Shown: piece after piece, positions 4,975 through 64,000 of the stretch | Position numbering within the stretch: position 1 is the first letter of the stretch | Layout: the number at the start of each line of letters is the position of its first letter | Assembly (NCBI GenBank): GCA_019912965.1 | Contig: JAIOHM010000232.1 | Coordinates: 1 to 64,000 of the forward strand | DNA: 64,000 nt | Reading direction: 5' to 3' | Origin: Anaerolineae bacterium | GTDB lineage: Bacteria > Chloroflexota > Anaerolineae > Aggregatilineales > Phototrophicaceae | Position numbers and translations under genes: made by a program | Notes under the pieces: model-generated | What the model was told of the DNA's origin: nothing | The model's database searches: none | Seen by the model: the letters and a program-made list of their open reading frames with translations, nothing else

Positions 4975-7900
4975 TTACGGGAAGACGCGGATGGCGTCGA
5001 TATCCACATAGAAGACAGGCGGATAGTTGGTAGGTGGTAGATTATAGCCAAAACTGCTGCAATCGCTGTCGACGAATAACTGCACCTTATGCATACCGGG
5101 GTTAAGGTCATTGACGCTGAAGGCGAATGGACGGTAGCGGCCTGTAGATGCGCTGCTGCCGATATATAGTTCAATGCCGTCAAATATATTTGGACCCAGT
5201 GTGAATTGGTAGCGCACGTTATCGACGAATACTTCCATACAACCTTGAGCCGGGCCAACTGAGGTATAGACGACGAAACCCGTGCCATTCATGAAGAATT
5301 GGGCGCTGGCTCCATCCTGCTGACTGCGGCGCAGTGAACCACCTGCAGGTATGTAGCCACCCAGCGATTTCGCGCCGGGAGGGATGAAGTTGAAAGATGC
5401 GCTTGATGGGCCAACAGATGCGCCGGAGGCATTGCCCCAAATACCTGTATAGGTAATAGCAGCATCGGTTTGTTGTACCTGACCACGCGCGGCTGTCAGC
5501 AGGTTATAGGTTAGGGGCTGGATGAAGTCCAGTTCCATGTAGGTTGTAACGGCACTGGTACGCACGATTTCGGCGCGATGTATACCTGTGAAGAATACCT
5601 GACGACCGACGACTGCGGTGGGCGATGTATGGCTGCACCATGTCCGCAGGGAGTTGACCGGGTTATCGGCGTTGATGGTATCAACCAGCAGGCCATCGAC
5701 GAGGACATTGTAAGTGCCGCCGTTGAATTCAGCCAGATAGCCAATGCATAAGGCATTGCCTGTAAAGATGAAATCGACGCGGGCAGTGGGGTCAACCGTA
5801 TAACGTGTGCTATTGGCATATGCACCCGGCAGCGCATAGTTGTACCAGACACCTGTGTAACCGATAGTGGCAACCCGTTCATCGACCTTTGTAGCGATGG
5901 GTGCAGCCACCGAAGGCAGAACTGCATCGAATTCAAGGGTGCTGCCAGCCTGATTGGTGATCTGGATGACATGTTCGCTGGGGGACAAGTTGTTGATGAT
6001 GTAAGGAACTTTGACTCCTGTCGTACTGTTGTTGTTCATCACACCATAAAACACGCCATCAACGAACACATTGGCTGTGCCATAACTCGGAGCCATTGTC
6101 CGGTAGATAGTGATGGTGCTGCCTCTCGCGCGGAACGAGACATAAGCGCCATCGGCAGTGGTGTAAGTTACGGTATTGGCATTCGAACCGAGTGAGGTTG
6201 CCGTAAACCACTCTTGTGATAGCCCGGAATTGTAGTAGCGAATGCGGGTCAGATCACGGTCATCCGTCAGACCGATCACCGGATTACCGACGACGCTGTT
6301 ATAGATGCGGATACGATCCAGCGTGATACCACCCGGTGTGCCACCCGCTGCACGGCGGAGGGAGACAGTGTGGAGGCCGCTGTAACCAGCATAGACGATC
6401 TGTACCCTGTTGCCGGTTGTGATGGCTGCCCGGTTGGAAAGATTCTGCACGCCGCCGATAGTGGAGTTGAAGTCGATCTGTACATCATCAACGTAGACTT
6501 CCAAATCACCTTGCGTCGGGCCAATCACGCGATAGAGTTCAAAGGCATCGCCATTGAAAACGAAACTGGCAACAGCACTGTCGTCGGTAGTGCCCGCGTA
6601 GTTACCGCCGGAAGCACTCGGCAGCGCGAAGGTAGCCCACGTACCTGTGTAACTGATTTGCGGTGCGTTGTTCTGATGGTCAGTTGCCAGAAGCGCTACA
6701 CCTGACCGGACATTCAGAGCCAATACCTGATCGTTCCAGCCACTTCCAAAGCCGTCAACCACGATGTAGTAGGTTTGTCCAGCGGTCAATTGTGCGCCTA
6801 CCAGCGAGGTTGCACCAATGCCTGAGTCGTCGTTACAGGCGACTTGTGTCAGCGCACCGGGTGTATTCCCCAGGTACACGCCCAATACAGTATCGAAGCT
6901 CGATCCATGTGTATTGAACTGATAGTGACCAGAGACAGTGGGCTTGTACTTCCACCACAGCGTTTGACCGGGCGATTCACCACAAGTGACCGGATCACTA
7001 ATTTGCGAAGTGACGCTGCGGCTGTGGAACGGCTGAGTGATGCTATAGGGCACGGTTGCGATGTTGGTTGCGCTCTCGAAATTATCGTTGAGCTGTGGTA
7101 CCTTGCAGTTGGGCGAGTTGTAGAGCCACTTCATGGCAAAGTCGGCATCCACAACGCCGTAACCCATGAAGTCATCGTAGCCGGGGAGGTTTTCGGGCGT
7201 TCCCGCATTTTCATCCCGTGCACCGCAGATCAGGGCTTCCTTGACCGTCGCTGGGGTGGTTGCCACGCCGGAACTGACCAGCAAGGCCGCGATACCAGAG
7301 ACATGTGGCGCAGCCATTGATGTACCATTCAGGTACCCATAACGCGAGGGGGAGGACAGCGTGCCAACCGCCAACATGGTGCTGAGGATGTTCACACCGG
7401 GGGCGGAGATGGTCACAAGGTTATTGAAGGTAGAGAAGCTCGCTGTAGTCGCGTTGGAATCATGGGCAGCGACGCTGATAACACCCGGATAGGAAGCGGG
7501 ATAGTTGAGGATGTTGGTGCCACTGTTGCCTGCAGAGGCGATCACGATCACCCCACGCGTGATGGCGTAGTTGACAGCGGCGGCCATGCTGGTGGTGAAA
7601 GCCGTGCCACCCAAACTCATGTTGATGATCTTGGCTCCCTTGTCCACTGCGTAGACAATGCCGTTGGAGATCACGAAATTGTTACCAGCGTTGGCGTTGT
7701 TGAGCACTTTGACCGACAATATCTTGGCATTGTAGGCCACGCCCGCAACACCGATAGCATTATTGGTTTTGGCAGCAATCGTGCCTGCGACGTGGGTGCC
7801 ATGTCCGTAGTCATCTGCCGGGTTGTTGTCGTCATTGACGAAATCCCAGCCACCGAGGGCGGCTTGCCCAATCAGATCAGGGTGGGTGAAGTCCACACCA

Positions 7901-8943
7901 CTATCCAGCACGGCGACGATGACACCAAGTCCGCGCTTGGGTGAATGATCCCAGGCAACAGTTGTCCAAGTGCCACCTGGACCCGTTTTCAGCCCGTACA
8001 TACCGGCATCAGTGAACAATGCGTCATTGGGGATGAAGTCGCCAGTCGAGTCCTGGAAGCCAGTGAATTCGGCCAGTTCTTCGATGTTGACCAGTCCGGC
8101 GGCCTGCGCGACGGCGCTGCCAGAGACCATGCCCATTGCGGAGGTGGCTTCGCTTATGGCATCCGGGACGAGCACTTTCATCGCGCCAATTTGCGGAATG
8201 CGCTGGACTTCAGTCGCACCCAGTGAAGTGAGCAGCGCCTGAATTGCAGCTTCGTCGGCTGCCGGATTGTAGTTGATGACCAATTGTTTGGTCGGAATGC
8301 CAGCGGGGTCTGGGGTGGGTTCGAGGGTGGCTTGTGGTGCTGCCACGTTCATCACCAACCCAAGCAAAACCTGATTGCCAGTCGCATCAATAATGGTGAT
8401 GGTGAGCGTATCCGCGCCGACAAAATCAGCAGCGGCGGTGTAGGCGACTGTGACCAGTGTGTTGAAGGGAGCGTTTGCCTCAACCGGATCACTGGCGGTG
8501 ACGGTAACGACACCTGCCAATGCTGAAACGGTTACGCGCACGATACCTTCGTCATCCGATACCGAAAACGGAATCGTCAACTCGATTCCGGCAGTCGCAT
8601 CGAAAGCCATTCCAGCGGTGAGGCTGGCAACTGGCGGAATTGAAATGGGAGGCAGTGTGGGTTCGGTTGTGGCTTCAGGAGTTTGCTCAACGATTGGTTC
8701 TGTTGGCACTTCTGTAGGAACTTCCGTTGGAATGTCTGTAGGAACTTCCGTAGGAACGTCGGTCGGCACCTCGATTGGTGCGTCGGTCGGCGCCTCAGTT
8801 GGGACATCCGTTGGTGCTTCAGCGGTGGTCTCGGTTGGGATATCCGCTGGCGGTTCAGCCGGGGGCGGGTCTTGCGCGTAGGCGGCGCTCCCTAACCCCA
8901 GCATGAACATTAGTATTACAAATAACAATAAACGAGTTCGCAT
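4975..8943 (-). CDS. Secreted subtilisin-like serine protease (S8) with four C-terminal beta modules
   Basis: 1322 residues. A signal peptide ends at AAYAQD (about residue 24). Residues 25-100 are a low-complexity (P-T-E/D-x)n linker and 105-205 a beta-sandwich domain. After an inhibitor-like prodomain (about 215-265), the S8 catalytic domain carries Asp347 (VAVLDSGVD), His381 (GHGTHVAGT), Asn473 (SAGNSG) and Ser542 (GTSMAAPHVSG). Beyond about residue 625 there is a pre-peptidase-like domain and then four related modules of about 120-140 residues, each with a Y-T-G-x-W or similar start and a VFVD/VYVD core, resembling galactose-binding-like folds. It is probably an exported protease bound to surface or polymeric substrates. 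The start has a clear signal peptide. Confidence 0.92.
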   Translation of the reverse strand: MRTRLLLFVILMFMLGLGSAAYAQDPPPAEPPADIPTETTAEAPTDVPTEAPTDAPIEVPTDVPTEVPTDIPTEVPTEVPTEPIVEQTPEATTEPTLPPISIPPVASLTAGMAFDATAGIELTIPFSVSDDEGIVRVTVSALAGVVTVTASDPVEANAPFNTLVTVAYTAAADFVGADTLTITIIDATGNQVLLGLVMNVAAPQATLEPTPDPAGIPTKQLVINYNPAADEAAIQALLTSLGATEVQRIPQIGAMKVLVPDAISEATSAMGMVSGSAVAQAAGLVNIEELAEFTGFQDSTGDFIPNDALFTDAGMYGLKTGPGGTWTTVAWDHSPKRGLGVIVAVLDSGVDFTHPDLIGQAALGGWDFVNDDNNPADDYGHGTHVAGTIAAKTNNAIGVAGVAYNAKILSVKVLNNANAGNNFVISNGIVYAVDKGAKIINMSLGGTAFTTSMAAAVNYAITRGVIVIASAGNSGTNILNYPASYPGVISVAAHDSNATTASFSTFNNLVTISAPGVNILSTMLAVGTLSSPSRYGYLNGTSMAAPHVSGIAALLVSSGVATTPATVKEALICGARDENAGTPENLPGYDDFMGYGVVDADFAMKWLYNSPNCKVPQLNDNFESATNIATVPYSITQPFHSRSVTSQISDPVTCGESPGQTLWWKYKPTVSGHYQFNTHGSSFDTVLGVYLGNTPGALTQVACNDDSGIGATSLVGAQLTAGQTYYIVVDGFGSGWNDQVLALNVRSGVALLATDHQNNAPQISYTGTWATFALPSASGGNYAGTTDDSAVASFVFNGDAFELYRVIGPTQGDLEVYVDDVQIDFNSTIGGVQNLSNRAAITTGNRVQIVYAGYSGLHTVSLRRAAGGTPGGITLDRIRIYNSVVGNPVIGLTDDRDLTRIRYYNSGLSQEWFTATSLGSNANTVTYTTADGAYVSFRARGSTITIYRTMAPSYGTANVFVDGVFYGVMNNNSTTGVKVPYIINNLSPSEHVIQITNQAGSTLEFDAVLPSVAAPIATKVDERVATIGYTGVWYNYALPGAYANSTRYTVDPTARVDFIFTGNALCIGYLAEFNGGTYNVLVDGLLVDTINADNPVNSLRTWCSHTSPTAVVGRQVFFTGIHRAEIVRTSAVTTYMELDFIQPLTYNLLTAARGQVQQTDAAITYTGIWGNASGASVGPSSASFNFIPPGAKSLGGYIPAGGSLRRSQQDGASAQFFMNGTGFVVYTSVGPAQGCMEVFVDNVRYQFTLGPNIFDGIELYIGSSASTGRYRPFAFSVNDLNPGMHKVQLFVDSDCSSFGYNLPPTNYPPVFYVDIDAIRVFP

Positions 8944-50268: not shown

Positions 50269-50720
50269 ATGAGCGAGACGAATATCACGGAGGTGCTGAA
50301 CCTCATCAATGTGGTTGTGGCAGGTGTCATCAGCGCGGATGGCTACGGGCCGATCAGCATGATTCGGGAATTGGGCGCGGTGAACGCGAATTTTTTCATG
50401 CTGCGCGGGAACAATATGCCGCCAGCCCGACGATTCAAGCGGTATTGGATTTGTCGGCATCCGAGGCCTATGTTCAGGAAGGCGAGAAAGTTGATCTGGG
50501 GCATTTCGATCATCAGGCCGCATTGGAACGCTCTGGACATCTGGATGAACTGCTGGCAGGTGTGGCAGACGCGGGACAGGTGAAGCAGTTCCTTTATGAT
50601 CTGGCGGTGCATGTGGCGGAGGCAGCCGGGCCGGGAGTCTTCGGGCGTGGCAAACCAATCAGCCCGCAGGAAGGCATGTACTTAAAATTGTTGAAAGAAA
50701 AATTAGGGCTTTATCAATAA
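50269..50720 (+). pseudogene. Hypothetical protein gene split by a -1 frameshift
   Basis: Codons from ATG 50269 (SETNITEVLNLINVVVAGVI...) are sensible until NANFF at about 50397. They then become Arg-rich and stop at 50583. In the -1 frame the sequence continues as HAAREQYAASPTIQAVLDLS and ends AEAAGPGVFGRGKP...LGLYQ at 50720, for about 150 residues in all. The junction is T-TTT-TTC at 50391..50397, a canonical slippery heptamer and also a T-run. It is either a base-calling or genuine deletion, or programmed frameshifting. The protein family is not recognised. It is nine bases from the hydrolase gene. Confidence 0.7.
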
Positions 50721-50729
50721 GGAGCAGGG

Positions 50730-51533
50730 ATGCCGCACAACACGGTCAACGGGATGCAGATGTACTATGAATTACATGGGCAGGAAGGCAAAGAAGTCGT
50801 TTTATTTTTACACGGTTTAGGGTCTAGCACGCAGGATTGGGAGCTGCAAACGCCATACTTCACGCGCGAGTATCGGGTGCTGCTGGTGGATATTCGCGGG
50901 CATGGACGCAGCGGCAAACCCGCCGGGCCGTACAGCGTGCGGCAGTTCGCGCAGGATATGGTGACGCTGCTCGATCAACTGAAGATTGATAAGGCGCATA
51001 CGGTGGGGTTATCGATGGGCGGGATGATCGCGTTCCAAATGGCGGCGGATTATCCAGACCGCCTGTTGACGATGACAATTGCCAACAGCGGCCCTGCGGT
51101 AGTCGCACGAACGCTCAAAGAGAAGTTCGCTATCTGGATGCGATTCTTTATCGTGCGGCTGTTGGGGATGCAGAAGATGGGCGAAACGCTCGCCAAGCGG
51201 TTGTTCGTCCGGCCTGAAGAAGAAGCCCTGCGACAGACCTTCATCAAGCGGTGGACGGAAAATGATCCGCGTGCCTATATGGATGCGATGCGCGGTATCG
51301 TTGGCTGGACTGTGGAAGACCAGATTGGCAATATAAATGTCCCAACGCTGGTGCTGGCGTCTGATCAGGATTATACGCCCGTCGCGGCGAAAGAGGCTTA
51401 TGTCGTAAAGATGCCGAATGCCACGCTGAAAATTCTCCCAGACTCACATCATGCGGTGGCGGCTGAGCGCCCGGAAGTCTTCAACGAAGCGGTTTACGGA
51501 TTTATCCATTCCGTCATCGCGCCAGCACGCTAA
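50730..51533 (+). CDS. Alpha/beta-hydrolase
   Basis: 267 residues. The oxyanion loop is LFLHGLGSSTQDW, the nucleophile elbow is VGLSMGGMIA (Ser near residue 97), and the acid is in LVLASDQDYTPV (Asp near 213) with SHHAVAAERP as the His region (near 240). It fits the 3-oxoadipate enol-lactonase/haloperoxidase-like group, with a small cap. GGAGCAGGG precedes the ATG. It follows the frameshifted gene by nine bases and probably shares a transcript with it. Confidence 0.9.
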   Translation: MPHNTVNGMQMYYELHGQEGKEVVLFLHGLGSSTQDWELQTPYFTREYRVLLVDIRGHGRSGKPAGPYSVRQFAQDMVTLLDQLKIDKAHTVGLSMGGMIAFQMAADYPDRLLTMTIANSGPAVVARTLKEKFAIWMRFFIVRLLGMQKMGETLAKRLFVRPEEEALRQTFIKRWTENDPRAYMDAMRGIVGWTVEDQIGNINVPTLVLASDQDYTPVAAKEAYVVKMPNATLKILPDSHHAVAAERPEVFNEAVYGFIHSVIAPAR

Positions 51534-51630
51534 ACAAGGAACTACTTCTACCTCTGTAAACCCGGTTAAGGCTAAAATAAATATATTGCTTTCGTAATTT
51601 GCAAAATAGAATAGGGATAGGTATATTCAC

Positions 51631-51660
51631 TTGCAAGCTCGATTGAATTTGAAATATAAA
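51631..51660 (+). promoter_or_regulatory. Candidate promoter of the 51696-59637 gene set
   Basis: TTGCAA (51631..51636) and TATAAA (51655..51660) are separated by 18 bases, in an AT-rich gap between the hydrolase gene and the TTG start at 51696. This would place the start of transcription about 30 bases before the gene. No similar boxes are seen before the next three genes, which supports one transcript. Confidence 0.4.
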
Positions 51661-51695
51661 TAATACTGTACACATCCAATAAGGGAGCAAGTACC

Positions 51696-53783
51696 TTGTT
51701 GACACACAAACGATTGATATTCGTCTGCATTATGTTTCTGTGTGTATTCATGGTGAAATCTCTCTTGGCTGCACAGGGTACTGATCTCTCTGGAACAGGC
51801 TCGGCAGCCAGTAATACCGATTCTTTGGGCGACCTTGAATTTAGCTTCGGCTATCCAGAGGGTTGGCGCATCGTTGAACTGGATAGTATTCCGCGCGGAG
51901 GGGCAGCATTATCGCTTATACAGCGCGACGCGCTTGGCCTAGAGTCGCCAGTTGCCTTATTGACGATTTCGTTAATTGAGTCGCCCCGCGCACTGGATGT
52001 ATTTTCCATGTCAGGGGTCTTGACATTCGGTTTGGCACGGGAGACACAGCCCAGTCAAGGTTTCGTTCTTGCAGAGCGTGATGCGGCTGCGCTGCGTGGT
52101 ATCGTTGCGGTTGGCGATGTAGAGCGCGAAACACTTGCCGTAGTTATTCAAGTAGGGCCTGAATTATTCGCGCTTGGTCAAGTAGTCAGTAATGGACCGT
52201 CGTTAGATGAACTGGAACCCGTGGTTCAGGAGATTTTAGCTTCGGTCAAAGCAGATTTACCAGAAGAACAGCCAACGGCGACCAGCACCCCGATTCCACT
52301 GCCTACTGAACCACCCAAAGCCTGCCCATGGATTGCGACGGCAGCGGTTGCGCGCGTGAGAGTCGTTAATGCCGAAGAAGCCGGCACGGGTCGTGATTTT
52401 GGCACAGACGGCGATCAAATCGTCCTTACGATGGCGATTGGGCCAGCCTTGCCCAATCAACAAGTTGATCCGGGAATTTTTGGCACCTTCCTCTTTGAGT
52501 GGACGGCTAACCTTCAGGGCGGCGATATACGTGATGAAGTGGGGACTTTAAGCCGAGATATTTGTGATGAAGATTTTGGACTGGTGGTCAGTATTGTTGA
52601 AGATGACTCTACCCCATTCGGCCCAGTGCTAACCTCTATTGGCGAACGGGTATTCCTCCCACTGGTCACGGCTGGACAGCCTGTTGAATATCGGTCAGAG
52701 GTGATTGAAGTATTCCAAGGTGAATCCCAGGATGGGGGATATGAGTATCAACTTGCCCTCCGCATCACTATTCAAACTCAGGAAGGAATCACCACCGCTG
52801 ATTTGACCCCAACTCCTACACCTTCCAATACGTACACGCCCGCCCCAACCAACACGCCAACGTCTACCCGTACACCGACGGCGACTTTCACCCTGACCCC
52901 AACGGATACCCTAACGCCATCGAATACACCAACCAATACTGATACGCCAACCAGTACGTCAACCCCAACTCAAACCTATACACCAACGGTAACGCTTACA
53001 CCATCCGTCACGCTCACACCGAGCAAAACCTTTACACCGACCATTACACCGACGCCATCGCGGACGTACACCCCGTCAGCGACTTTTACGCCCAGCCGCA
53101 CGCCAACATCGACGGCTACGCCGACAAATACGCCTACACCAACGAATACCGCAACGCCTACCAAGACCTTTACACCTTCCCTTACTCCTACTCCAACGTC
53201 AACCTTCACGCAGACCATGACGCCAACGGTCACACCGACAGAAACGGTAACGTCCACCCCAACGCCGCTTATTTGTCCGGGGGCTTTGCCAGCACGCTTG
53301 CAGCCCGGTATGGAAGCCCGTGTCATTCCGGGCGGGAATCGTAACCGTGTGCGGACGGATCCAACCTTAAACGGGGTGGAGCTAGGACGGATAGATCCCG
53401 GTGAACGTTTCTTTATTATGGATGGCCCGGTATGTGCTGATGGCTTTACGTGGTATTTAGTCGATTACTTTAACTTGGTCGGTTGGACTGCGGAAAGTGA
53501 TGCCACTGACTATTGGCTGGAACCCATCACGGTGCCGCCGACGGTTGAAGTTGGCGAGGATGCCTGCATTGTGACCGCCAATGGACAGGTCAACCAACGG
53601 AATGGTCCCGGCACTGGCTTCGACCAGGTTGGAACGTTGGTCAATGGGGATACGCGCGTTGTGATTGGTCGGGCAGTTAGCACTGCTGGATTCAATTGGT
53701 GGAAACTTGAGGATGATACTTGGGTTCGTGAGGACACGGTGACGATCTCTGGTATATGTTCCGGCATACCTGAGGTGCAATAG
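51696..53783 (+). CDS. Secreted protein with Thr/Pro-rich linker and two SH3-like domains
   Basis: 695 residues. It starts at TTG with AAGGGAG eight bases upstream, and the signal peptide ends near residue 27 (SLLAAQG). Residues 40-185 form an alpha/beta domain of unknown type ([18 protein letters not shown]), followed by a second domain (about 205-360) and then about 150 residues of T-P-T/S repeats (370-525). The C-terminus has an SH3b-like domain ([17 protein letters not shown]...[13 protein letters not shown]) and another ([15 protein letters not shown]...[12 protein letters not shown]). The first SH3-like domain is homologous to one in 56734..59637. It likely spans or binds the cell envelope. 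Confidence 0.8.
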
Positions 53784-53787
53784 AAGC

Positions 53788-54870
53788 ATGGGCAAGCAGA
53801 ATGTGTTCATCAGTTATTCACATGCAGACCGCAACATGGCGGTGCAGATTGCGTCACTATTGTCAAAAGAGGGTTTGAACATCTGGATTGATGTCGAGGA
53901 TATTCCTCCCGGTGAAAATTGGCGTAATGCGATTGAAGATGGATTAAAAACCGCCGAAGTGATGCTGCTGCTGGTTAGCCCAGAGTCGATGGCTTCTGCC
54001 GAAGTGCAAGGGGAGTGGAATTACTTTCTTGACGAGAAAAAACCCATCATCCCAATTCTGCTTCGGCCAACCGAGATTCCATCGCGTCTGCGGCTCATTC
54101 AGTGGATAGATTTTTCACAGGGAAGCGGCAGCTTGCTTGAAAATTATGCTCGCCTGCATGACCGCTTGAAAGGAGAGGCGGTCACGCTTCGGGATAACAA
54201 TCGTCAGGCTTTTCCGGCTGGGCAGAATCCATCAGCACATTTACCGCCAAGTCATGACGGGGGCGCGAATCGCACTCAGATCATCATCGCCTTGATTGGA
54301 GCAGCGGCGGTAGTCGTTGCAGCCGTGATTGGTTTACTACCCATACTCCTAAATCGCCCGGACACTTCTTTGCCAACTACTACGGTAGCCGCTGTAATTA
54401 GCACGGCGACAGTTGACCCTGCCGGGACAGCGGTAACACCACAACCCACTGCACTTCCCGCAGCAACCAGCACCCCTTCCGTGCCTCGTGGGACATTTGA
54501 CATCACCCTCATTTACAACCAATCGGACAGTTTCATAGTGCAAGCCAATAAACCTAGCAGTTTTGATGGACTTGTATTGCGAACAACTAGCGAAGAGTCC
54601 GTGTTGACTGCCTTTTTTACAGATTTAGCCCCCGTCGGATTTGTACTTCAGTCAGGGGAATGTTTGGTATTTGTCCGTACTGGCGAATCGCCTCCGCCAC
54701 CTCGTGCGTGCCAAAAATCCTACGAATATGAGATGGTGTCGGCAGAAACCTTCTGGTATGACAATCAACGTAATCGGGCGCGCGACCTCGCATTGGTATT
54801 GGACGAGAATATTTTAGGCATTTGTTCCGCACAGGGTGGTGCAGGCGTTTGTGATTTCACTGAACCGTAA
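53788..54870 (+). CDS. TIR-domain transmembrane protein with four-Cys ectodomain
   Basis: 360 residues. The TIR_2-type domain (about 3-135) has NVFISYSHADR (strand A and box 1), IWIDVEDIPPGENWRNAIED and VMLLLVSPESMASAEVQGEW, whose Glu76 is in the place of the catalytic Glu of TIR NADases. A single membrane segment lies at about 163-187, then a Thr/Pro linker to about 235 and a C-terminal domain of about 120 residues with four Cys (GECLVF, RACQKS, GICSAQ, GVCDF) and an ETFWYD motif. The TIR part is cytosolic and the rest outside. It starts four bases after the previous stop. The same C-terminal domain ends the next gene's product. Confidence 0.87.
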   Translation: MGKQNVFISYSHADRNMAVQIASLLSKEGLNIWIDVEDIPPGENWRNAIEDGLKTAEVMLLLVSPESMASAEVQGEWNYFLDEKKPIIPILLRPTEIPSRLRLIQWIDFSQGSGSLLENYARLHDRLKGEAVTLRDNNRQAFPAGQNPSAHLPPSHDGGANRTQIIIALIGAAAVVVAAVIGLLPILLNRPDTSLPTTTVAAVISTATVDPAGTAVTPQPTALPAATSTPSVPRGTFDITLIYNQSDSFIVQANKPSSFDGLVLRTTSEESVLTAFFTDLAPVGFVLQSGECLVFVRTGESPPPPRACQKSYEYEMVSAETFWYDNQRNRARDLALVLDENILGICSAQGGAGVCDFTEP

Positions 54871-54885
54871 TGGGAGATAAAAGCT

Positions 54886-56694
54886 ATGCGGTATGGATGG
54901 CGGATGAGTCTGTTGGTCTTCGTGATGATTGCAGCCCAGTCTGTTCTGCTTGCACAGGACAGAAGCACGTTCATCGCCTTTGTAGGCAAGCGCGGGGAAA
55001 ACGAAGACATATTTCTCACTACGCAGGATAACAGCATTACCTATAACCTGACCAACGCCCGTTCACGAGATTGGCATCCCACGTGGGCGCACGATGGTGC
55101 AAGAATCGCGTTCAGCACTGACCGTGATGGCAATAATGAAATCTATATGATGGAGGCTAATGGGCAGAATCCTCGCAACCTCACGGTCAATCCGGCCAGT
55201 GATACTTCGCCGGATTGGTCTCCAACATTGGATGAGATCGTTTTTGTCTCTGATCGGGACGGCGGTTTTGATTTGTATGTGCTGAACATTGCTGATGGCA
55301 CAACTCGCCGCTTGACGACGGATGCTCAACCTAAGAGCGACCCTGACTGGTCGCCTGATGGCACACGCATTGTGTATTGGGAATTGGTTGGGGACGCCGC
55401 ACAGTTAAATGCGATTGATGCCGACACAGGGGAGATTACACCTCTGTTGGCGGAAGGACAGAATCAGTGGCCTGCTTGGTCGCCAAGCGGAACACAGATT
55501 GCTTTCTTTAGTTCCATCGGAGAAGGCAGTGCGGCTGTCCGTTTGTTGGATCTCGCCAGCGATGGAGTCACTGATTTGCTTAGCTTTGACTTTAACAGCG
55601 CCCGACCAGACTGGTCGCCGGATGGAAATCAGCTTGCCTTCATGAGTGATCGTGACGGCAATTTCAATATCTACATTGCTTCTGCGGATGGCTTAACGCT
55701 CACCCGTTTGACCAGCAATGCTGAGGATGATACCTCCCCTGCTTGGCAGCCTCAGCCCGCTGATTTGGACTTCAGCAATACGGCGCTCGGTCAAGGGGTC
55801 AATGTCGTTCAGGGAACAATTGATCCGGCATTGCAAGCGGCACTTGGGCCGGGTGATGCAACCATCTATGCACCAGAAGTGGCGAACCCGGCAGACATCA
55901 TCACGGTACGCTTACAACTAGACCCACAAGTAGCGGAGGGCGCACCTCAGCCAACGCCTGATTTGCCTGCACGAGATCCGCAAGCAGTGGAGGTTTACCG
56001 CTTTATGGGTGCTCGCCTGAGTCTCTTCGGCGGCGATTTGGGGGAAAGGTTTGATGTCTATCCCAATCCAACGGCGTATGTCATCCAGGTACAAGAGAAT
56101 GGTGAGAATTATTGGGAATGGATGCTCGCGGCGACTGGCGATGAAGCCCTCGGAACAAATCGCTTTATCATAGAGCTTTACTTGCCCGCTTTTGAACAGA
56201 ATGGCGCTGTTATCGAAACGCGCATCGCGACCCTTAATTTCCAAATCGAGGTTGGGGCTGAGGAAGTCACACCGCCAGAGCATGTTCGATCAGCAATTGT
56301 GCCCGAAACGCCTGAAATCGGTGTTGCGGTTGAGTATAGTGGGCAAGAAGCATTGTCCATCATTTTTCTGGATACAGTGGACACAAGCTCACTGGTGATC
56401 GTCGGACGCCGACAGCCATTTATAGTAAACCAGGATTTTGATGCCCTGAATTTGAGGGATGGACAGTCCGCCCCCGGACAATGTTTTTCCTATATTTTGA
56501 CAAGTGCTACCCCGGTACTTTCGCGGGACTGTCAAAATGAGGCTGAGGGAATGGTAGCGGATATCGAATTGGCGCAGAGTGACGTATTCTGGTTTAACCG
56601 CATTAATGGTGGTATTCAGGATGTGACTATTCAGTTCAACGGCAAAACCTATGTTTGTCCCGCGGAACTTGCGCCGCTGCGTTGTGAATTCTAG
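54886..56694 (+). CDS. Secreted TolB-like beta-propeller protein with four-Cys C-terminal domain
   Basis: 602 residues. The signal peptide ends near residue 24 (SVLLAQDR). Residues 30-290 are six WD40/TolB-type blades, each with a W-S/A-P-D-G-x-x-I-A/V-F core and D-R-D-G-x-x-x-I/L-Y (for example SPDGNQLAFMSDRDGNFNIY). A middle domain (about 300-480) is unassigned. The C-terminal 125 residues match the domain of the TIR protein: PGQCFSYIL, SRDCQNEA, SDVFWFNR and the end YVCPAELAPLRCEF. GGGAGA precedes the ATG, and the gap to the TIR gene is 15 bases. No catalytic site is visible. Confidence 0.82.
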   Translation: MRYGWRMSLLVFVMIAAQSVLLAQDRSTFIAFVGKRGENEDIFLTTQDNSITYNLTNARSRDWHPTWAHDGARIAFSTDRDGNNEIYMMEANGQNPRNLTVNPASDTSPDWSPTLDEIVFVSDRDGGFDLYVLNIADGTTRRLTTDAQPKSDPDWSPDGTRIVYWELVGDAAQLNAIDADTGEITPLLAEGQNQWPAWSPSGTQIAFFSSIGEGSAAVRLLDLASDGVTDLLSFDFNSARPDWSPDGNQLAFMSDRDGNFNIYIASADGLTLTRLTSNAEDDTSPAWQPQPADLDFSNTALGQGVNVVQGTIDPALQAALGPGDATIYAPEVANPADIITVRLQLDPQVAEGAPQPTPDLPARDPQAVEVYRFMGARLSLFGGDLGERFDVYPNPTAYVIQVQENGENYWEWMLAATGDEALGTNRFIIELYLPAFEQNGAVIETRIATLNFQIEVGAEEVTPPEHVRSAIVPETPEIGVAVEYSGQEALSIIFLDTVDTSSLVIVGRRQPFIVNQDFDALNLRDGQSAPGQCFSYILTSATPVLSRDCQNEAEGMVADIELAQSDVFWFNRINGGIQDVTIQFNGKTYVCPAELAPLRCEF

Positions 56695-56733
56695 TTGAGC
56701 AAACACCTGAGTGAGTCGATGAAGGATATGATA

Positions 56734-59637
56734 ATGCTCAAATGGATGCGCTGGATAGGGATGCTTTTACTGGGGCTGTTGGTCGTCAGCTTGGGGGCAG
56801 CCTTGACCGCTGCCCAAACCAGTCCTGTTGAGGAATTGCAGATCGCTTTTGTCTCCAATAGACAGGGTAATGAAGACATTTTCATTATGTCTGTGAATGG
56901 GGAAGGTGAACGCGCGGGGCGCTTAACCGATAGCGCCGCACGGGATTGGGATCCCGCTTGGTCGCCAGATGGCGCACAGATCATTTTTAACAGCGACCGC
57001 GATGGCCGAGACACACTCTACATTATGAATGCGGATGGGAGAGACGAGCGTCCGTTGTTCTCCGGCGAAACCTTCAATGATTACGAGGCGTCGTTCTCGC
57101 CTGATGGTTCGCAAATTGTATTTGTGTCTGATCGAGGCGGAATTGGTCGGGATATTTACACGGCCAATGTCGATGGCACCAATATCCAGCCCATTACAAC
57201 CGATGGACGAATCAAGGGTACACCAACCTTTTCACCCGATGGTTTGGAAATCCTGTTTTGGGATCAGACCAATGATGGCAGTATTAATGTCTATCGCTAT
57301 ACCATTGCTGATGGCGAGATTCTTCTCGTGACGGACGGCCAAACCAGTGGTTCGCCAGTCTGGTCGCCGTTGGGCGATGCGATCTTTTTTGATAGTGATC
57401 GGGGTGATGGCTTCTGGGCTGTCTATCGGGCTGCACCGGATGGGGCATCACCGGAACGGATGACGGACAGCGGTGTAAATAGTGGACGGTCTACTATTTC
57501 GCCCGATGGTCAGCAGATCGCGTTTGTGACTGACCGCGATCAAAGCGACGATATTTACCGCGTGAATATTGACGGTAGGGGTCTGACCCGCTTGACAATA
57601 AATGATGCTTCCGATCACAGTCCAGCGTGGCAGCCTGCTATTCCACCAAATGTCGTGGAGATTGCTGTACTGCCGACTCCTATTCCAGCTTCCGATGCAT
57701 TGGGGCCGCCTACTGTAGGACAAAGTGCCAGTGGTGTAGAAACGGTGCCCATTACGCTTGAGCGGCTCAAGCTGGAGTATGGTATTCAGGCTTGGCACGA
57801 TAACAACTGGTTAGGTGCGGGGCAGCGCGTCGGTGTGATTGACACGGCGTTCGGCGGTCTGGATACCTTTATGGAGACAACTGGGGATGTGCTGCTGCCA
57901 CCGGATGTTCTTTTAAGTGATTACAGCAACAGCAACGATGCACATGGCACTGAGGTTTTGGAGATCATCCATACCATCGTGCCCAACGCTGATCTCTACG
58001 CTTGCCAGTATAAGGCCTCACTTGAGGAATTGACTGTGTGCCGCGACTGGATGGTGCGGAATGGGGTAAAGGTTATTAATCACTCGGTCGGCTTGCCTAT
58101 ACTACCGCTGAATGGCAAGAGTGCATGGGCCAATTTGGTGAACGATACTTATGCCCAAAGCGTTTTATGGGTGAATTCTGCCGGGAATTTCAATCAAGGT
58201 TACTATACCGATAACTTTCAGGATGGTGATGATCCTGATAGCGCACATGATTTCATTGTTGGTAATCAATTGGGGGATATGTCAGTTGACCTGCAAGGAC
58301 AGCGTTACTCTGGCAATGTACTCCTGAGTTGGATCGAGCCAACCGAGATAACGAATGAATTCGGTGAGATCGTATCTGTGCTTGACCCAATGCAGCGTAT
58401 CGACCTCGACCTGGAAATTGTGGACGCTGCTGGAAACCCCGTTGGCCCACAGGGAGCGGGGCAGCAGCGCCAAACAGAGAACTTGGATGTCCCCACCTTC
58501 GAGCGCATTCAGCTTGCTGAGGTTGCGACCCCTTTTAGTATTCGGGTGGTAAATGCCGGACGCGACTTTGAAGAACGGGTCGAGTTTTCGATCTTTGTCG
58601 AATTTGCCCCACTGGAACTGCGCGCTGATAAAGGTTCAACCATTGCCCCGGCGGATGCAGTCCGTTCCTTAACAGTCGGTGCGGTCAACGGTAATCGCCA
58701 GTTGGGTGCCTACAGTTCACGCGGGTTGGAAATTGGTGCGTATACCAAACCTGATCTTTCTGCTCCGGGTGAAATCGTTCTTGCAAATGGAACCCCTTTC
58801 ATCGGTACATCGGCTGCTGCGCCAGTTATTTCTGGTGTGGCGGCGCTGCTTCTGGAACGAAACGCCGATTGGACAATTGATGAATTGTATGAGGCGCTGG
58901 CAGAAAGATATGTGGTTAACCAAAACAATCTGGAATTCGGCGCGGGTATCCTACAACTTGGCCCACCGGGTATCAGCCGTCAAAATGGTCAGGTACTTAT
59001 CATCCCGCCAAAGACTGTGTTTCCTCAGCCTGAAGAAATCTTTGTTGATGAAGGATACCAATGTCCGGGGGCTATCCCACCGCGCATGAAGCTTGATATG
59101 CCCGGTTATGTCAACTATGATCTTGGCTTGGCAATTCGTCAGCAACCGGGCGGCAGCGAGCTTGATCGGCTCAATCTCGGTCAGCTATTCACCGTTATTG
59201 GTGGGCCTGTTTGCCTAAGTCAATTGAACTGGTGGGAAGTTGAGCTGGATACTGGCGCGATTGGTTGGGTTGGGGAAGGTGAAGATTATTATCTCATTGC
59301 CCCGGTCGTCTTGGAGAGCGCAGAACTCCCACAGGAATATGATCCAACATGCCCAAATGCGCTTGAAACACAACTGACAATCGGTGGTCGTGGTCGTACC
59401 AGCACGGGTGGCACACTCTTCTTCTTCCGTTCAGAAGGTGCACGCAACCAAATGGATCCGGTGGGTGGTGGCGAACTGGTACATATTCTGGGTGGCCCAC
59501 TTTGCGAGGGCAGGAATAATGATGTGCTGCGTTGGTATGTTCGCATTGTCGAAGGTAACCGTCTAGGACAAGAAGGATGGTTAGCTGAAGGCGATACAGA
59601 TACTCGCACTATTGACCCTGTTGTGGAGCAAGAATAG
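56734..59637 (+). CDS. Secreted propeller-subtilase (S8) with SH3-like tail
   Basis: 967 residues from ATG 56734 (AAGGA seven bases upstream; earlier in-frame starts at 56695 and 56719 are less likely). The signal peptide ends near residue 28 (ALTAAQT). Residues 33-310 are TolB-like propeller blades (WSPDGAQIIFNSDRDG). The S8 domain has Asp370 (VGVIDTAFGG), His404 (DAHGTEVLE) and Ser693 (FIGTSAAAPVISG), with a long insertion between His and Ser. The C-terminus carries two SH3-like domains, the first (CPGAIPPRMKLDMPGYV) homologous to 51696..53783. All three catalytic residues are present, so it is probably active. It starts 40 bases after the previous gene. Confidence 0.9.
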   Translation: MLKWMRWIGMLLLGLLVVSLGAALTAAQTSPVEELQIAFVSNRQGNEDIFIMSVNGEGERAGRLTDSAARDWDPAWSPDGAQIIFNSDRDGRDTLYIMNADGRDERPLFSGETFNDYEASFSPDGSQIVFVSDRGGIGRDIYTANVDGTNIQPITTDGRIKGTPTFSPDGLEILFWDQTNDGSINVYRYTIADGEILLVTDGQTSGSPVWSPLGDAIFFDSDRGDGFWAVYRAAPDGASPERMTDSGVNSGRSTISPDGQQIAFVTDRDQSDDIYRVNIDGRGLTRLTINDASDHSPAWQPAIPPNVVEIAVLPTPIPASDALGPPTVGQSASGVETVPITLERLKLEYGIQAWHDNNWLGAGQRVGVIDTAFGGLDTFMETTGDVLLPPDVLLSDYSNSNDAHGTEVLEIIHTIVPNADLYACQYKASLEELTVCRDWMVRNGVKVINHSVGLPILPLNGKSAWANLVNDTYAQSVLWVNSAGNFNQGYYTDNFQDGDDPDSAHDFIVGNQLGDMSVDLQGQRYSGNVLLSWIEPTEITNEFGEIVSVLDPMQRIDLDLEIVDAAGNPVGPQGAGQQRQTENLDVPTFERIQLAEVATPFSIRVVNAGRDFEERVEFSIFVEFAPLELRADKGSTIAPADAVRSLTVGAVNGNRQLGAYSSRGLEIGAYTKPDLSAPGEIVLANGTPFIGTSAAAPVISGVAALLLERNADWTIDELYEALAERYVVNQNNLEFGAGILQLGPPGISRQNGQVLIIPPKTVFPQPEEIFVDEGYQCPGAIPPRMKLDMPGYVNYDLGLAIRQQPGGSELDRLNLGQLFTVIGGPVCLSQLNWWEVELDTGAIGWVGEGEDYYLIAPVVLESAELPQEYDPTCPNALETQLTIGGRGRTSTGGTLFFFRSEGARNQMDPVGGGELVHILGGPLCEGRNNDVLRWYVRIVEGNRLGQEGWLAEGDTDTRTIDPVVEQE

Positions 59638-59707
59638 GATTTTTTGATCGGTTTCTTCTACTCTACATTAGCCAGAACAGGCTGGTACATGGTCTAGCTT
59701 GAAATTG

Positions 59708-59736
59708 GGGGCGCAGGGCAAGAACTGCGCCCCTTT
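59708..59736 (+). terminator. Terminator after the propeller-subtilase gene
   Basis: GGGGCGCAG and CTGCGCCCC pair over nine bases around GGCAAGAA and are followed by TTT. It lies 71 bases after the stop and probably ends the transcript that begins before 51696. Confidence 0.6.
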
Positions 59737-59983
59737 ATGTTGTGTAGCGATTCTCATAAAAGGCCGAAATTTGACACAGCCCCGGAAAACGCCAAAACGC
59801 TGTCATCCAGCGCGATCCAGCGCGATTCGGGGTGTCGAAAATGGGGGTGGTGAAATCAAAGCGCTTTCCAGAATCACCGTTTTGGGTTGTTAAACGGTAA
59901 TGCCCGAAAAGTTGTACAGGTCGATATCAAAAAGTTGTGTAAAAACGCGATCTGAGCTAATTTTGAGGTGAAGTCCAACGACC
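59737..59983 (+). other. Gap before the CRISPR array, possible leader
   Basis: No gene is seen. A 10-base direct repeat (CCAGCGCGAT twice) lies at 59807..59826. The last 100 bases before the first repeat (about 59884..59983) are relatively AT-rich and could be the CRISPR leader, given that the repeats end in ATTGAAAC and read left to right. No promoter is clear. Confidence 0.35.
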
Positions 59984-60171
59984 CTCTGATGAGTGGTGAA
60001 CCCCTCCGGGGGATTGAAACAAGTTTAATCCCTTTACTGCGGCGATTGGTTCCGTACCTCTGATGAGTGGTGAACCCCTCCGGGGGATTGAAACATTTTC
60101 TTTTCCACGACTTCATCTTGCATAGCAAACTTATCTCTGATGAGTGGTGAACCCCTCCGGGGGATTGAAAC
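59984..60171 (+). CRISPR. Minimal CRISPR array: three 37-bp repeats, two spacers
   Basis: Three identical 37-bp repeats lie at 59984..60020, 60058..60094 and 60135..60171. They begin CTCTGATGAG, contain a CCCC-TCC-GGGG hairpin and end GGATTGAAAC, the 3' end typical of type I and III repeats. The spacers are 37 bp (60021..60057) and 40 bp (60095..60134) and differ from each other. There is no degenerate last repeat. No cas gene lies in the window, so the array is either orphan or served by distant cas genes. The amidase starts 95 bases later. Confidence 0.92.
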
Positions 60172-60265
60172 TTTCCATCAATTTTGCCCTCATCTCTCTT
60201 GCGATTTCTCTACGGAGTGATGGATTTATCCATTCAGTCACAGCACACTAAACAAGGAACACCAT

Positions 60266-61828
60266 ATGGGCAACGGGCAAAATCAACCGAGCGAATATGA
60301 GGCGCGGCAGTTCAATACACCCATTTATGTCGGCAAGCGGGCGCTGGATTTTTCACCCTTTCAGGCTGCGCTGGCAACCTTCACCCCGGAACGGGCGGCG
60401 GCGATTGCCAATGTGTTGGGCAAGGCCACGATTTCGGATGCTCAGCGGCAGTTTGAAGCGGGCGAACTCACGGCGGAAACGCTGACGCTGTATTACCTGT
60501 ATCGCATTCAGCAGTTTGATGCCGATAAGCTCAACAGCGTTCTGGAACTGAACCCGGATGCGCTGACGATTGCGCGGCGGTTGGACAAAGAACGGGCGCG
60601 CGGTCAGGTTCGAGGGGCGATGCACGGCATTCCGGTGCTGCTCAAAGACAATATTGCGACTCATGACCGGATGCATAACACAGCAGGCGCGGCGGCATTG
60701 GTCGATGCTCAGGCGGCGCGAGATGCGTTCATCACGGTGCGTTTGCGGGAGGCTGGGGCGGTCATTCTGGGCAAGGCGGCCATGTCCGAGTGGGCGTATT
60801 ACATGACCACAACCGGAACTTCCGGCTTCAGCGCGTTGGGCGGGCAGGTGAAAAATCCTTACGGTGCGTTCGATGTGTCAGGGTCGAGTTCGGGGTCAGC
60901 GGTAGCGGCTGCGGCACATCTGGCGATGGTCACAGTCGGCACCGAAACCACCGGATCGATCATCGCGCCTGCTTCGCAAAATTCGATTGCGGCGCTCAAA
61001 CCGAGCGTGGGATTGGTCAGCCGCGACCAGATCATCCCGATTTCGCCAGCGATGGATACGGCAGGGCCAATGGGGCGGACGGTGACGGATGTGGCGATTT
61101 TGATGAACACGCTGACTGCGCGTGACCCGAACGATCCGGCTTCAGCAAGTGCGGCGGCGTTATTTGGGACAGATTTTACGGCATATTTGAATCCAGATGG
61201 GTTGCGCGGGCGGCGGGTTGGTCTGCTGCGCTTTGTGGAGGATGAGCCGTGGGACGAGGCGCTTTATGCACAGGCCATCGAATTGTTGAAGGCAGGGGGC
61301 GCGGAAGTTCTCGAAATTGGGTCGATTGCCAAAGAGGATTTCGCGCTGGTGGATACCCGCAGCGTGGTGTTTCCCTATGATTTCCGGCATGGTTTAGATG
61401 CGTATCTGAAGGCTAATCCACAGGGCGCACCGGAGTCGCTGGCGGCGGTGATCGCGTTCAATGAAACTGACCCCGCGAACCGCGTACCGTTCGGGATGGA
61501 TTTGCTGACCGGGGCACAGGCGAATACTTCGACACAGGCGGAACGGGATGAAGCCTTAGCCAAAGCACAGTCCGCCGCGCGGGGCTACATTCAGGATAAG
61601 CTGGCGGCGCACAATCTGGATTTTCTGGTGAGCTTCAATAACTATTTGGCCGCCTTTTATGCGCCGCCGGGACTGCCTGCGTTGGGCGTTCCGGGGTTGT
61701 ACCGGGAAAATGGTGAACCTGTGGGCATCACGTTCGTCGGCGATTATGGCACGGATGCCCAGTTGATCGCGGCGGGCTATGCGTTGGAACAAGTGCTAAG
61801 CGGACGACGCGAACCGGTGATTGGTTAA
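60266..61828 (+). CDS. Amidase (amidase-signature family)
   Basis: 520 residues. The catalytic Ser-cisSer-Lys triad is visible: Lys in PVLLKDNIAT (about residue 130), cis-Ser in the DVSGSSSGSAVA stretch and nucleophile Ser in GTETTGSIIAPAS (about 235). The Gly/Ser-rich signature is intact. An N-terminal region (10-75) precedes the domain, and there is no signal peptide. It hydrolyses amide bonds of an unknown small substrate. It resembles the amidases annotated as GatA-like, but GatB/GatC are not adjacent, so it is not called gatA. AAGGAA precedes the ATG. The TIR gene follows after nine bases. Confidence 0.92.
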   Translation: MGNGQNQPSEYEARQFNTPIYVGKRALDFSPFQAALATFTPERAAAIANVLGKATISDAQRQFEAGELTAETLTLYYLYRIQQFDADKLNSVLELNPDALTIARRLDKERARGQVRGAMHGIPVLLKDNIATHDRMHNTAGAAALVDAQAARDAFITVRLREAGAVILGKAAMSEWAYYMTTTGTSGFSALGGQVKNPYGAFDVSGSSSGSAVAAAAHLAMVTVGTETTGSIIAPASQNSIAALKPSVGLVSRDQIIPISPAMDTAGPMGRTVTDVAILMNTLTARDPNDPASASAAALFGTDFTAYLNPDGLRGRRVGLLRFVEDEPWDEALYAQAIELLKAGGAEVLEIGSIAKEDFALVDTRSVVFPYDFRHGLDAYLKANPQGAPESLAAVIAFNETDPANRVPFGMDLLTGAQANTSTQAERDEALAKAQSAARGYIQDKLAAHNLDFLVSFNNYLAAFYAPPGLPALGVPGLYRENGEPVGITFVGDYGTDAQLIAAGYALEQVLSGRREPVIG

Positions 61829-61837
61829 AAGCAATTT

Positions 61838-64000
61838 ATGCCCACTTTTTTTATGAGCTACGCGCGCAAAGATTTAAATCTGGTCTACGAGATTTATTTT
61901 GCTCTGCGGGATGATCCCCGTTTCAAGCTGTGGTTTGATATTGAAGACATTCGCCCTACTCTGTATTGGGAAGATGAAATCAAACGTGGGCTGGATTCAT
62001 GTGATGCAGTCATTTTGATTGCATCGCGGTTTTCACTTTCATCCCTGTTTGTGGCGCGTGAGTGGCAGTATGCACTGGAGCAGGGCAAGCCCGTTTATGC
62101 ATGGGTGATTGATGACTGCGCGGATGCCGAATTGGCAAAACTGCCACACGTGACGCTGCTGGATTTACGGGATGATCCATTTGATGTTCCACACTGGAAA
62201 GCGGCGGTTGAGGGTTGGCTAGACGATAGCCCTCCGACGACACCTGTGGCGGATTTCAGGCGTCCAAAACTGCCCGCTTACGTCCGCACCTTCACACGGC
62301 GCGTTGGAATTGCTCAACTGGTTTTTAGCATTTTGGCATTCAGCATCCTGGGTTTGTTTGCGCCCGCGCATGAACCGATTGTAACGCTGCTTGGCTTGCC
62401 GTTATTGATAGCAGATGCTTGTTTGGGGTTATGGTTTTTGGGACGTTTACGCCGCCGTTTGCTGGTGTCGCGCTCATGGGTAAGCTGGTTTCTCGTCGTG
62501 TGTATGGGTAAGTGGTTTCTCACTTTCTATTTGGAACTTTATACGACGCTGCCTGTTCCCGATATTTGGGGTGGGAATACCATCATCGGCATCTTTATAG
62601 TGGTCTTTTTGCTATTTAGCGTATTCAACCGTCTATGGCTTGGAGACTACGAATTTGGATACCGCAATCCCGCTAACGAACAAACGCTGCGACAGCAGTT
62701 CGCACAAGCGCAATATCTCCTGCCCATCTATCACTGGTTGCAATTTCCGCGTTATCGACGTTCCAAACTGCGGGGTTGGCTGCCCGCTTATGCCAGCAGC
62801 ATCATCACCCGGAATGGCTTTGCAAAGGACGACAGTTTCTTCAAAAACCATCAGCTTCGTCCACGTCCATCCCATCAGGTGATGCGGGTGGCTGTGCTGC
62901 ATTCAGCCGCAGATGCTCCTTTTGCCAATTGGTTAGCTGATGTGCTGGATTACCCTGTTAGACCCACTTGTCACCTCCTTGAGCAATCGCTCGATGCCAA
63001 TGGGTTTGATGATTCTGATGTGCTTTTAGCGTTGATTTCTCCATTTTCACTCAATACTTTAGAGGAGATGATTGCGAAACGCGGTTGGGGTAGAAATCAG
63101 TTATGGGTGAACATGTTGTTCCGTGACACGGATATTCCAGACAAATCCCCACTGTCAGCATCCCAGTGGATTGATGCTCGCCGCAACTATTGGGAAGCGG
63201 TTGAGATGCTGCGTAAACGACTGCGCGGGGAAAATTTTTACACCGCGACCGGAGATGTGCCGCCGCGCAGCTTCGGACTGCTTTTGAATCCGATGATGTG
63301 GGTTTTATACTGGCCTGTCCTGATGATAGGTTTGGTGTGGATGCTGTTTTTAGCCTTCGCACCGTTGGTTTCCCTGCTTGTCCCGCTGATTGACCCCGTG
63401 CGTTTGTACAGCGTTCAAGTAGCAGCGGTGTATGTACCATTAATTGCTGTGTACAGCCTGCTATTTCTGACGTTTATGGTCAGCACGATACGTGGGCGAC
63501 CTGCTTCTGTCGAACTCACCGCAGCATTATCGGCTTTGTATCTCATCCCAATTACCCTCATAAATGTGTTCCAAATTGCAGCGGTGGGATGGCTTACGAT
63601 TGGCGGATTTTTATACCTGATGCATAAGAGCCGCCACGATATTTTGAAGCGTCCGGCGCGGTACGGCCTCGATGATTTAGTGATCTCTGCTTTGATTGCG
63701 CGTCCGAATCTGCGGTTTGAGCGCCGCCGTTTTGGGCTGCATGTTGTGGCGACTGTGCTGCTGATAGGCACAATTTTGTTATGTGAAGCCGGAATCGCGC
63801 GTGATCCGCTTGGGCGTTACAAACCGGATTGGTATAACAGCGTTATCCCCAATACAACAGGTGTGGAAATACGCGGGCTGTTGGCTGGAACGGAAATCGT
63901 TCAAACCGAGATTGGCGGCCTGAGCATTCCCAATCCATCCCATCAGTTTGCCAACACCCAGCGAATACACCTGCTGCTCATCCTAAGGCAAATTGCTGAG
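61838..64000 (+). CDS. TIR-transmembrane protein with second TIR-like domain (runs off the window end)
   Basis: The frame is open for 721 codons from ATG 61838 to the last base and has no stop, so the gene is partial. Residues 3-135 are a TIR domain (FFMSYARKDLNLVYEIYF, WFDIEDIRPTLYWEDEIKRG, VAREWQYALEQGKP), with Glu75 in the catalytic place. Three or four membrane segments follow (about 155-265). A cytosolic domain (about 340-460) begins VMRVAVLHSAADAPFANWLA and contains DSDVLLALISPFSL, a diverged TIR-like fold without the Glu. More membrane segments (about 490-600) precede a further segment near 640 and a presumed extracytoplasmic end. It starts nine bases after the amidase. Confidence 0.82.
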   Translation, partial: MPTFFMSYARKDLNLVYEIYFALRDDPRFKLWFDIEDIRPTLYWEDEIKRGLDSCDAVILIASRFSLSSLFVAREWQYALEQGKPVYAWVIDDCADAELAKLPHVTLLDLRDDPFDVPHWKAAVEGWLDDSPPTTPVADFRRPKLPAYVRTFTRRVGIAQLVFSILAFSILGLFAPAHEPIVTLLGLPLLIADACLGLWFLGRLRRRLLVSRSWVSWFLVVCMGKWFLTFYLELYTTLPVPDIWGGNTIIGIFIVVFLLFSVFNRLWLGDYEFGYRNPANEQTLRQQFAQAQYLLPIYHWLQFPRYRRSKLRGWLPAYASSIITRNGFAKDDSFFKNHQLRPRPSHQVMRVAVLHSAADAPFANWLADVLDYPVRPTCHLLEQSLDANGFDDSDVLLALISPFSLNTLEEMIAKRGWGRNQLWVNMLFRDTDIPDKSPLSASQWIDARRNYWEAVEMLRKRLRGENFYTATGDVPPRSFGLLLNPMMWVLYWPVLMIGLVWMLFLAFAPLVSLLVPLIDPVRLYSVQVAAVYVPLIAVYSLLFLTFMVSTIRGRPASVELTAALSALYLIPITLINVFQIAAVGWLTIGGFLYLMHKSRHDILKRPARYGLDDLVISALIARPNLRFERRRFGLHVVATVLLIGTILLCEAGIARDPLGRYKPDWYNSVIPNTTGVEIRGLLAGTEIVQTEIGGLSIPNPSHQFANTQRIHLLLILRQIAE

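Follow-up and report, generated by a model that had tools for sequence, protein, structure and literature searches.

Bacterial TIR domains have mostly been studied as cytosolic defence enzymes. In the 7.8 Mb Anaerolineae genome considered here (GCA_019912965.1; 5% estimated contamination), 128 TIR_2 domains exceed the Pfam cut-off, and other family members sampled carry 3 to 64. Such an abundance in one genome raises the question of their use. One of these domains lies in the window analysed here (64,000 nucleotides of contig JAIOHM010000232.1), in a protein that appears to cross the membrane and is encoded among genes for secreted proteins. The explanation that fits best as a whole model, and that we hold to be probable, is that these four genes constitute a single unit encoding a bacterial TIR receptor and its extracellular accessory proteins. 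The features are as follows.

51696-53783, forward strand: gene 1, open reading frame for a secreted protein with a signal-like N-terminal helix
about 53283-53780, forward strand: C-terminal SH3-like domains of gene 1 (SH3_3)
53788-54870, forward strand: gene 2, TIR receptor-like protein of 360 aa, predicted N-in/C-out single-pass
53788-54162, forward strand: TIR domain of gene 2, residues 1-125 (Pfam), with putative catalytic Glu76
54274-54357, forward strand: single transmembrane helix of gene 2, residues about 163-190 (hydropathy scan, sequence)
54490-54867, forward strand: four-Cys ectodomain of gene 2, residues 235-360 (Cys292, 308, 346, 355; A1/A6 profiles)
54886-56694, forward strand: gene 3, secreted PD40 propeller with a C-terminal four-Cys domain
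about 54958-55785, forward strand: PD40 propeller of gene 3 (Pfam), followed by a middle region without domain assignment
56311-56691, forward strand: four-Cys domain of gene 3, the second in the operon (Cys533, 549, 591, 600; profile)
56734-59637, forward strand: gene 4, secreted protein with PD40 propeller, S8 subtilase and SH3-like domains
about 59101-59634, forward strand: C-terminal SH3-like domains of gene 4 (BLASTP, weak SH3_3)
59707-59734, forward strand: intrinsic-terminator-like hairpin, 10 pairs (8 GC) with a T-rich tail

The initial annotation described four co-directional genes separated by 4, 15 and 39 bases, and open reading frame analysis of 51696-59637 returns exactly these. 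The longest open reading frame of gene 4 opens at a TTG at 56695, and the ATG at 56734 is preceded by an AAGGAT-like ribosome site. A terminator had also been proposed and is plausible, as the hairpin after gene 4 is the richest in GC pairs among those found in 50500-61000. The candidate promoter upstream of gene 1 is not evidence because its 9/12 match belongs to a regional total of 12 matches, compared to 9.6+/-3.1 in shuffles. Pfam domains bear out the product types that had been read from the translations (SH3-like, TIR-membrane-ectodomain, propeller and propeller-subtilase). Downstream, past an amidase gene, 61838-64000 (continuing to 64225; L055:1838-4222) encodes a second TIR protein with an N-terminal TIR_2 domain, several hydrophobic stretches and, by eye, a mid-protein TIR-like stretch. 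On the reverse strand, 4978-8943 encodes a very large protein of 1322 aa that opens with a signal-like segment and has N-terminal repeats rich in Pro, Thr and Glu.

Three of the four products are secreted proteins built from a small set of domains, and the pairwise sharing of SH3-like, propeller and four-Cys domains that had been noticed from the translations was recovered by Pfam, BLASTP and HMM searches. Gene 1 has an uncharacterised N-terminal region, a Thr/Pro/Ser-rich linker (residues 371-523) and SH3-like domains (SH3_3, E 2.7e-7); gene 4 has a weak SH3_3 match (E 0.006), and BLASTP between G007 homologues and window proteins aligns the SH3-like domains of genes 1 and 4 at 35-36% identity over 86-89 aa (E 4e-8 to 6e-8). 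The propellers of genes 3 and 4 belong to the same Pfam family (PD40, E 3.8e-31 and 5.3e-28, respectively) and are 38-39% identical by BLASTP between G007 and window copies; the NCBIfam TolB model scores 206 and 165 bits, below its cut-off of 343. The subtilase of gene 4 (Peptidase_S8, E 1e-21) has a complete Asp370/His404/Ser693 triad with oxyanion Asn481, all conserved in G007 and G010. The four-Cys domains of genes 2 and 3 are retrieved by one HMM with E values of 1.6e-46 and 1.2e-44.

Gene 2 is predicted from its sequence to be a single-pass receptor with its TIR domain inside and its ectodomain outside. The TIR_2 assignment is secure (E 7.9e-31, 107.5 bits compared to a curated cut-off of 28), and gene 2 has no Pfam Pkinase match. 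Glu76, which the initial annotation had singled out, occupies the position that we take to be that of the catalytic Glu of TIR NADases; it is invariant in 11/11 related proteins with the same TIR-transmembrane-four-Cys architecture, which is no proof of NADase activity because a Glu is common in TIR_2 domains. Relative to the G007 homologue, the TIR domain is the best conserved part (72% identity), followed by the ectodomain (58%) and linker (40%). The gene 2 and gene 3 proteins have exactly four Cys each, all of which lie inside the four-Cys domain, as expected if this domain lies outside the membrane and forms disulfides.

The four-Cys ectodomain represents an unnamed family with a strict signature. 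It falls outside all Pfam families, and sequence comparison links it to no solved chain. All 50 aligned copies, which are 17-59% identical to the window's, retain the four Cys and an FW pair, although this strictness is partly selection because all 50 copies were collected with a profile containing those residues. In the 7.76 Mb window genome, the A1 profile finds no copy besides those of genes 2 and 3 at E<=1e-3, and a broader profile finds a third, weaker one. An eight-copy profile detects the domain in 24/98 genomes of the family; at E<=1e-8, a search of 396 genomes of the class returned matches in members of the family only, and a 50-copy profile detects it in 70/154 genomes of the order. 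An AlphaFold2 model of the gene 2 ectodomain (window copy, four sequences) has pLDDT 81.7 and pTM 0.76. The top 10 Foldseek matches to this model are all lamin tail Ig-like domains, and VIA-align places 12 lamins on top (Z 7.6-5.1) with the first non-lamin at Z 4.8. The best lamin match, at Z 7.6, is below 8 (3.5 A over 103 residues, TM about 0.49), and the Lamin tail domain (LTD) profile matches none of the 50 copies at E<=1. The ectodomain is predicted to have a lamin-tail-like Ig fold, a resemblance of fold without sequence support for homology. The gene 3 copy has no independent model because prediction of residues 292-602 failed (pLDDT 40.9).

The proteins that carry this ectodomain provide the best evidence, from sequence comparison, that gene 2 would be a receptor with enzymatic output. 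In 15 of the 50 proteins that host it, the ectodomain follows a cytosolic domain and an internal transmembrane helix; most others are secreted. The cytosolic domain is TIR in 11, DUF4062 in one (L138) and MinD/ParA-like in three, a count of orthologues of which one (L128) was domain-scanned. Of 20 further loci read with the wider profile, nine encode a kinase-like N-terminus and a transmembrane helix followed by an ectodomain with all four Cys; all six kinase-like N-termini tested match Pkinase (E<=1.2e-44), and other hosts in this set are secreted CAP proteins. A preprint reports DUF4062 to be a family of TIR-like NADases that share a conserved catalytic Glu (PMC13174449); domains of two NADase types thus take the same place relative to this ectodomain. 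Chiefly because the ectodomain also stands behind kinases and DUF4062, gene 2 can be read as a receptor with TIR output, a reading independent of the reasoning in the initial annotation. TIR enzymes seem, on these architectures, to have been plugged into bacterial receptors.

Individual hosts illustrate the variety of these proteins. The DUF4062 protein (L138:7227-10010, reverse strand) has the order DUF4062, transmembrane helix, SH3 and four-Cys. Three orthologous-looking proteins (L128:6803-9466, reverse strand; L130:4779-7571; L131:6541-9213) have a transmembrane helix and a four-Cys domain near the C-terminus, with a MinD/ParA-like ATPase N-terminus in L128. A 2401 aa protein (L298:6455-13657, reverse strand) has a cyclase-like start (by eye), one transmembrane helix and three tandem four-Cys domains. 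At L118:4596-6146, a kinase-like sequence fused to a LuxR-type response regulator (by eye) adjoins a TIR-TM-FGE-like gene and a secreted four-Cys protein.

The quartet occurs in the same order in 3/17 genomes of the genus: the window genome (G000), G007 (G007:C609, L050; the contig ends within gene 4) and G010 (G010:C222 continued on C252, L051 and L273; the contig border truncates gene 1, and gene 4 lies in two parts, one on each contig). The proteins encoded by L156, a public Anaerolineae MAG contig, are those of G007:C609. Identities to G007 for genes 1-4 are 75.6, 57.7, 65.5 and 79.3%, with 87.2% for uvrC, and those to G010 are 36-50% (50% for the C-terminal fragment of gene 1, 36% for gene 3), with 82% for uvrC. 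One flank was compared in each relative, upstream in G007 and downstream in G010, and both differ from the window's, so the four genes look like the unit. A profile scan of contigs with a gene 4 alignment yielded one true relative, L156, the rest being mainly PD40 propellers, and a class-level search for a wider spread of the operon returned propeller or subtilase matches separately. Gene order across relatives had been proposed as a test of the arrangement, and the outcome is divided: the order is kept in three genomes, and 8/11 TIR-TM-4Cys loci are without propeller and subtilase genes. Six of those eight have other secreted partners; the G009 gene (L052) stands alone and the G002 gene (L117) has no clear secreted partner. 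Secreted partners are therefore usual, and the propeller-subtilase pair is particular to the window operon.

In four genera, a total of six TIR-TM-4Cys genes are transcribed divergently from uvrC. Behind each of them come genes for secreted proteins that all belong to one family, some with SH3 domains. This recurrent placement points to loci that are resident and vertically inherited. In the window genome, the corresponding place beside uvrC holds a TIR-TM-FGE gene (L267:2850-4370). Across L053, L116, L123, L136, L149, L150 and L267, the uvrC-divergent TIR-TM gene is kept in four genera with either a four-Cys or an FGE ectodomain.

From these architectures we infer a working scheme that covers topology, oligomer-driven activation, NADase output, partner binding and proteolytic control. 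The gene 2 protein would be anchored in the cytoplasmic membrane, its N-terminal TIR domain facing the cytosol and its lamin-tail-like Ig-type domain, stabilised by disulfides, facing outwards. Other members of the ectodomain family belong to secreted proteins or to transmembrane Hanks kinases, and the TIR domain would accordingly take the kinase's role. Binding outside would alter receptor association, and TIR-TIR association would turn on an NAD+-processing enzyme that cleaves NAD+; the quartet has no gene for a cADPR-type effector. The gene 3 product, a propeller with an ectodomain of this type, probably binds either the receptor itself or the partner that the receptor meets outside. The SH3-like modules of genes 1 and 4 likely anchor these proteins at the wall or on each other. 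The gene 4 subtilase may act as an on- or off-switch by cleaving the gene 1 product, the gene 3 product or the ectodomain.

The initial annotation had read the locus as an envelope-sensing system in which outside events, possibly proteolysis, reach a cytosolic TIR effector. The sensing part stands well with a single-pass TIR protein that has an outer domain and secreted partners in an order kept in three genomes, and the term receptor gains from the presence of the ectodomain on kinase and DUF4062 membrane proteins. Proteolysis as a general trigger does not stand because the 8/11 related loci that have neither propeller nor subtilase show that it cannot be class-wide; it is possible as a special feature of the window operon, where it depends on co-occurrence in three related genomes. 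More broadly, a Chloroflexota order may have joined interchangeable outputs (Ser/Thr kinase, TIR NADase and DUF4062 NADase) to one four-Cys lamin-tail-like sensor and so made receptors, of which the one here would be controlled by a subtilase and a sensor-bearing propeller; we offer this tentatively and with more doubt than conviction. If true, the system would parallel in layout the protease-gated signalling of Toll/IL-1R, with NAD+ chemistry as its means of acting across a membrane. Encoding of a protease with a receptor recalls Toll-Spaetzle.

Other readings of the quartet must be weighed against a receptor with accessory proteins. The strongest is abortive defence against phages or predators, in which a membrane TIR protein would sense phage adsorption, DNA entry or envelope damage through its ectodomain and secreted partners and kill by NAD+ depletion. 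The bacterial TIR and TIR-like NADases that have been characterised serve as effectors against phages (PMC12578639, PMC13174449, PMC12847820), the TIR protein evolves faster than uvrC (57.7 vs 87.2%, G000 vs G007), the compared flanks are not conserved and the genome is rich in TIR_2 domains. However, the location of related loci beside uvrC in four genera is unlike that of mobile islands, known TIR defence rarely involves secreted accessory proteins, and no defence genes occur among the window genes scanned (the quartet and two flanking genes). PADLOC returns TIR matches without a system, and the NCBIfam model ThcB4 reaches 36.9 where its cut-off is 220; membership in a known defence system was rejected on these domain-level matches. 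We regard defence as unlikely. Developmental or cell-cell signalling is a less probable reading, in which, in relatives that form filaments or aggregates, the TIR receptor would report contact with neighbours or the state of the matrix and lead to regulated death or differentiation. It accords with the occurrence of the ectodomain throughout the order, both in receptor kinases and in secreted proteins with a CAP domain, and with comparative genomic work that links TIR and other effector domains to multicellular bacteria (PMC7159879, PMC10907252). A similarly low probability attaches to a TIR domain that is only a scaffold and recruits other TIR proteins without enzymatic output: TIR domains also serve as scaffolds (PMC8494770, PMC7075850) and the 128 TIR_2 domains offer many potential partners, but invariance of Glu76 and replacement of TIR by a reported NADase family in the same architecture argue for an enzyme. 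Chance inclusion of a TIR gene in a secreted carbohydrate- or protein-processing cluster is very improbable. The lineage has many PD40, subtilase and SH3 proteins encoded elsewhere than in the operon, but three genomes keep the same order (36-80% identity), the flanks that were compared differ, and genes 2 and 3 have an ectodomain in common.

The receptor with accessory proteins, our preferred reading, can be compared with several known systems. Hanks-type Ser/Thr receptor kinases of the same order (for example L279, L286 and L293) have the same layout of N-terminal cytosolic signalling domain, single transmembrane helix and C-terminal four-Cys ectodomain, but with a kinase domain where gene 2 has TIR; the neighbours of these kinase loci are known from short stretches. 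Thoeris ThsB and other TIR defence NADases have the TIR fold and a putative catalytic Glu in common with gene 2, whereas none of the four genes here is ThsA-like and gene 2 has a membrane anchor, an ectodomain and secreted partners. Swarozyc/DUF4062 NADases are of TIR-like NADase type, and L138 has DUF4062 on the same transmembrane-ectodomain arrangement; the consulted part of the source describes Swarozyc as a phage-portal-sensing complex and mentions no membrane, and gene 2 has TIR_2 rather than DUF4062 (PMC13174449). Ternary, VMAP and DGR-diversified conflict systems of multicellular bacteria use TIR, FGE/CLec, WD40 and S8-peptidase parts (PMC7159879, PMC10907252), but the quartet has no vWA, MoxR or STAND domain and its partners are secreted. 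Animal IL-1R/Toll-like receptors also combine a cytosolic TIR domain, a single transmembrane helix and an Ig-like outer domain (IL-1R, PMC7075850). Their ectodomain is N-terminal and their TIR domain C-terminal, whereas this order is reversed in gene 2 (TIR 1-125, ectodomain 235-360), whose outer domain is lamin-tail-like with two likely disulfides and for which no adaptor is known. The likeness to animal receptors is one of layout, not descent. A literature search with incomplete coverage found no description of bacterial membrane TIR receptors or of TIR expansion in Chloroflexota. A TIR domain in a kinase's place behind a common sensor would make receptor-style bacterial TIR signalling testable, and the operon supplies a protease-receptor-partner set for reconstitution. 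TIR signalling and single-pass receptors are already known separately; TIR output, a four-Cys sensor and a co-encoded subtilase appear to be a new combination of known parts.
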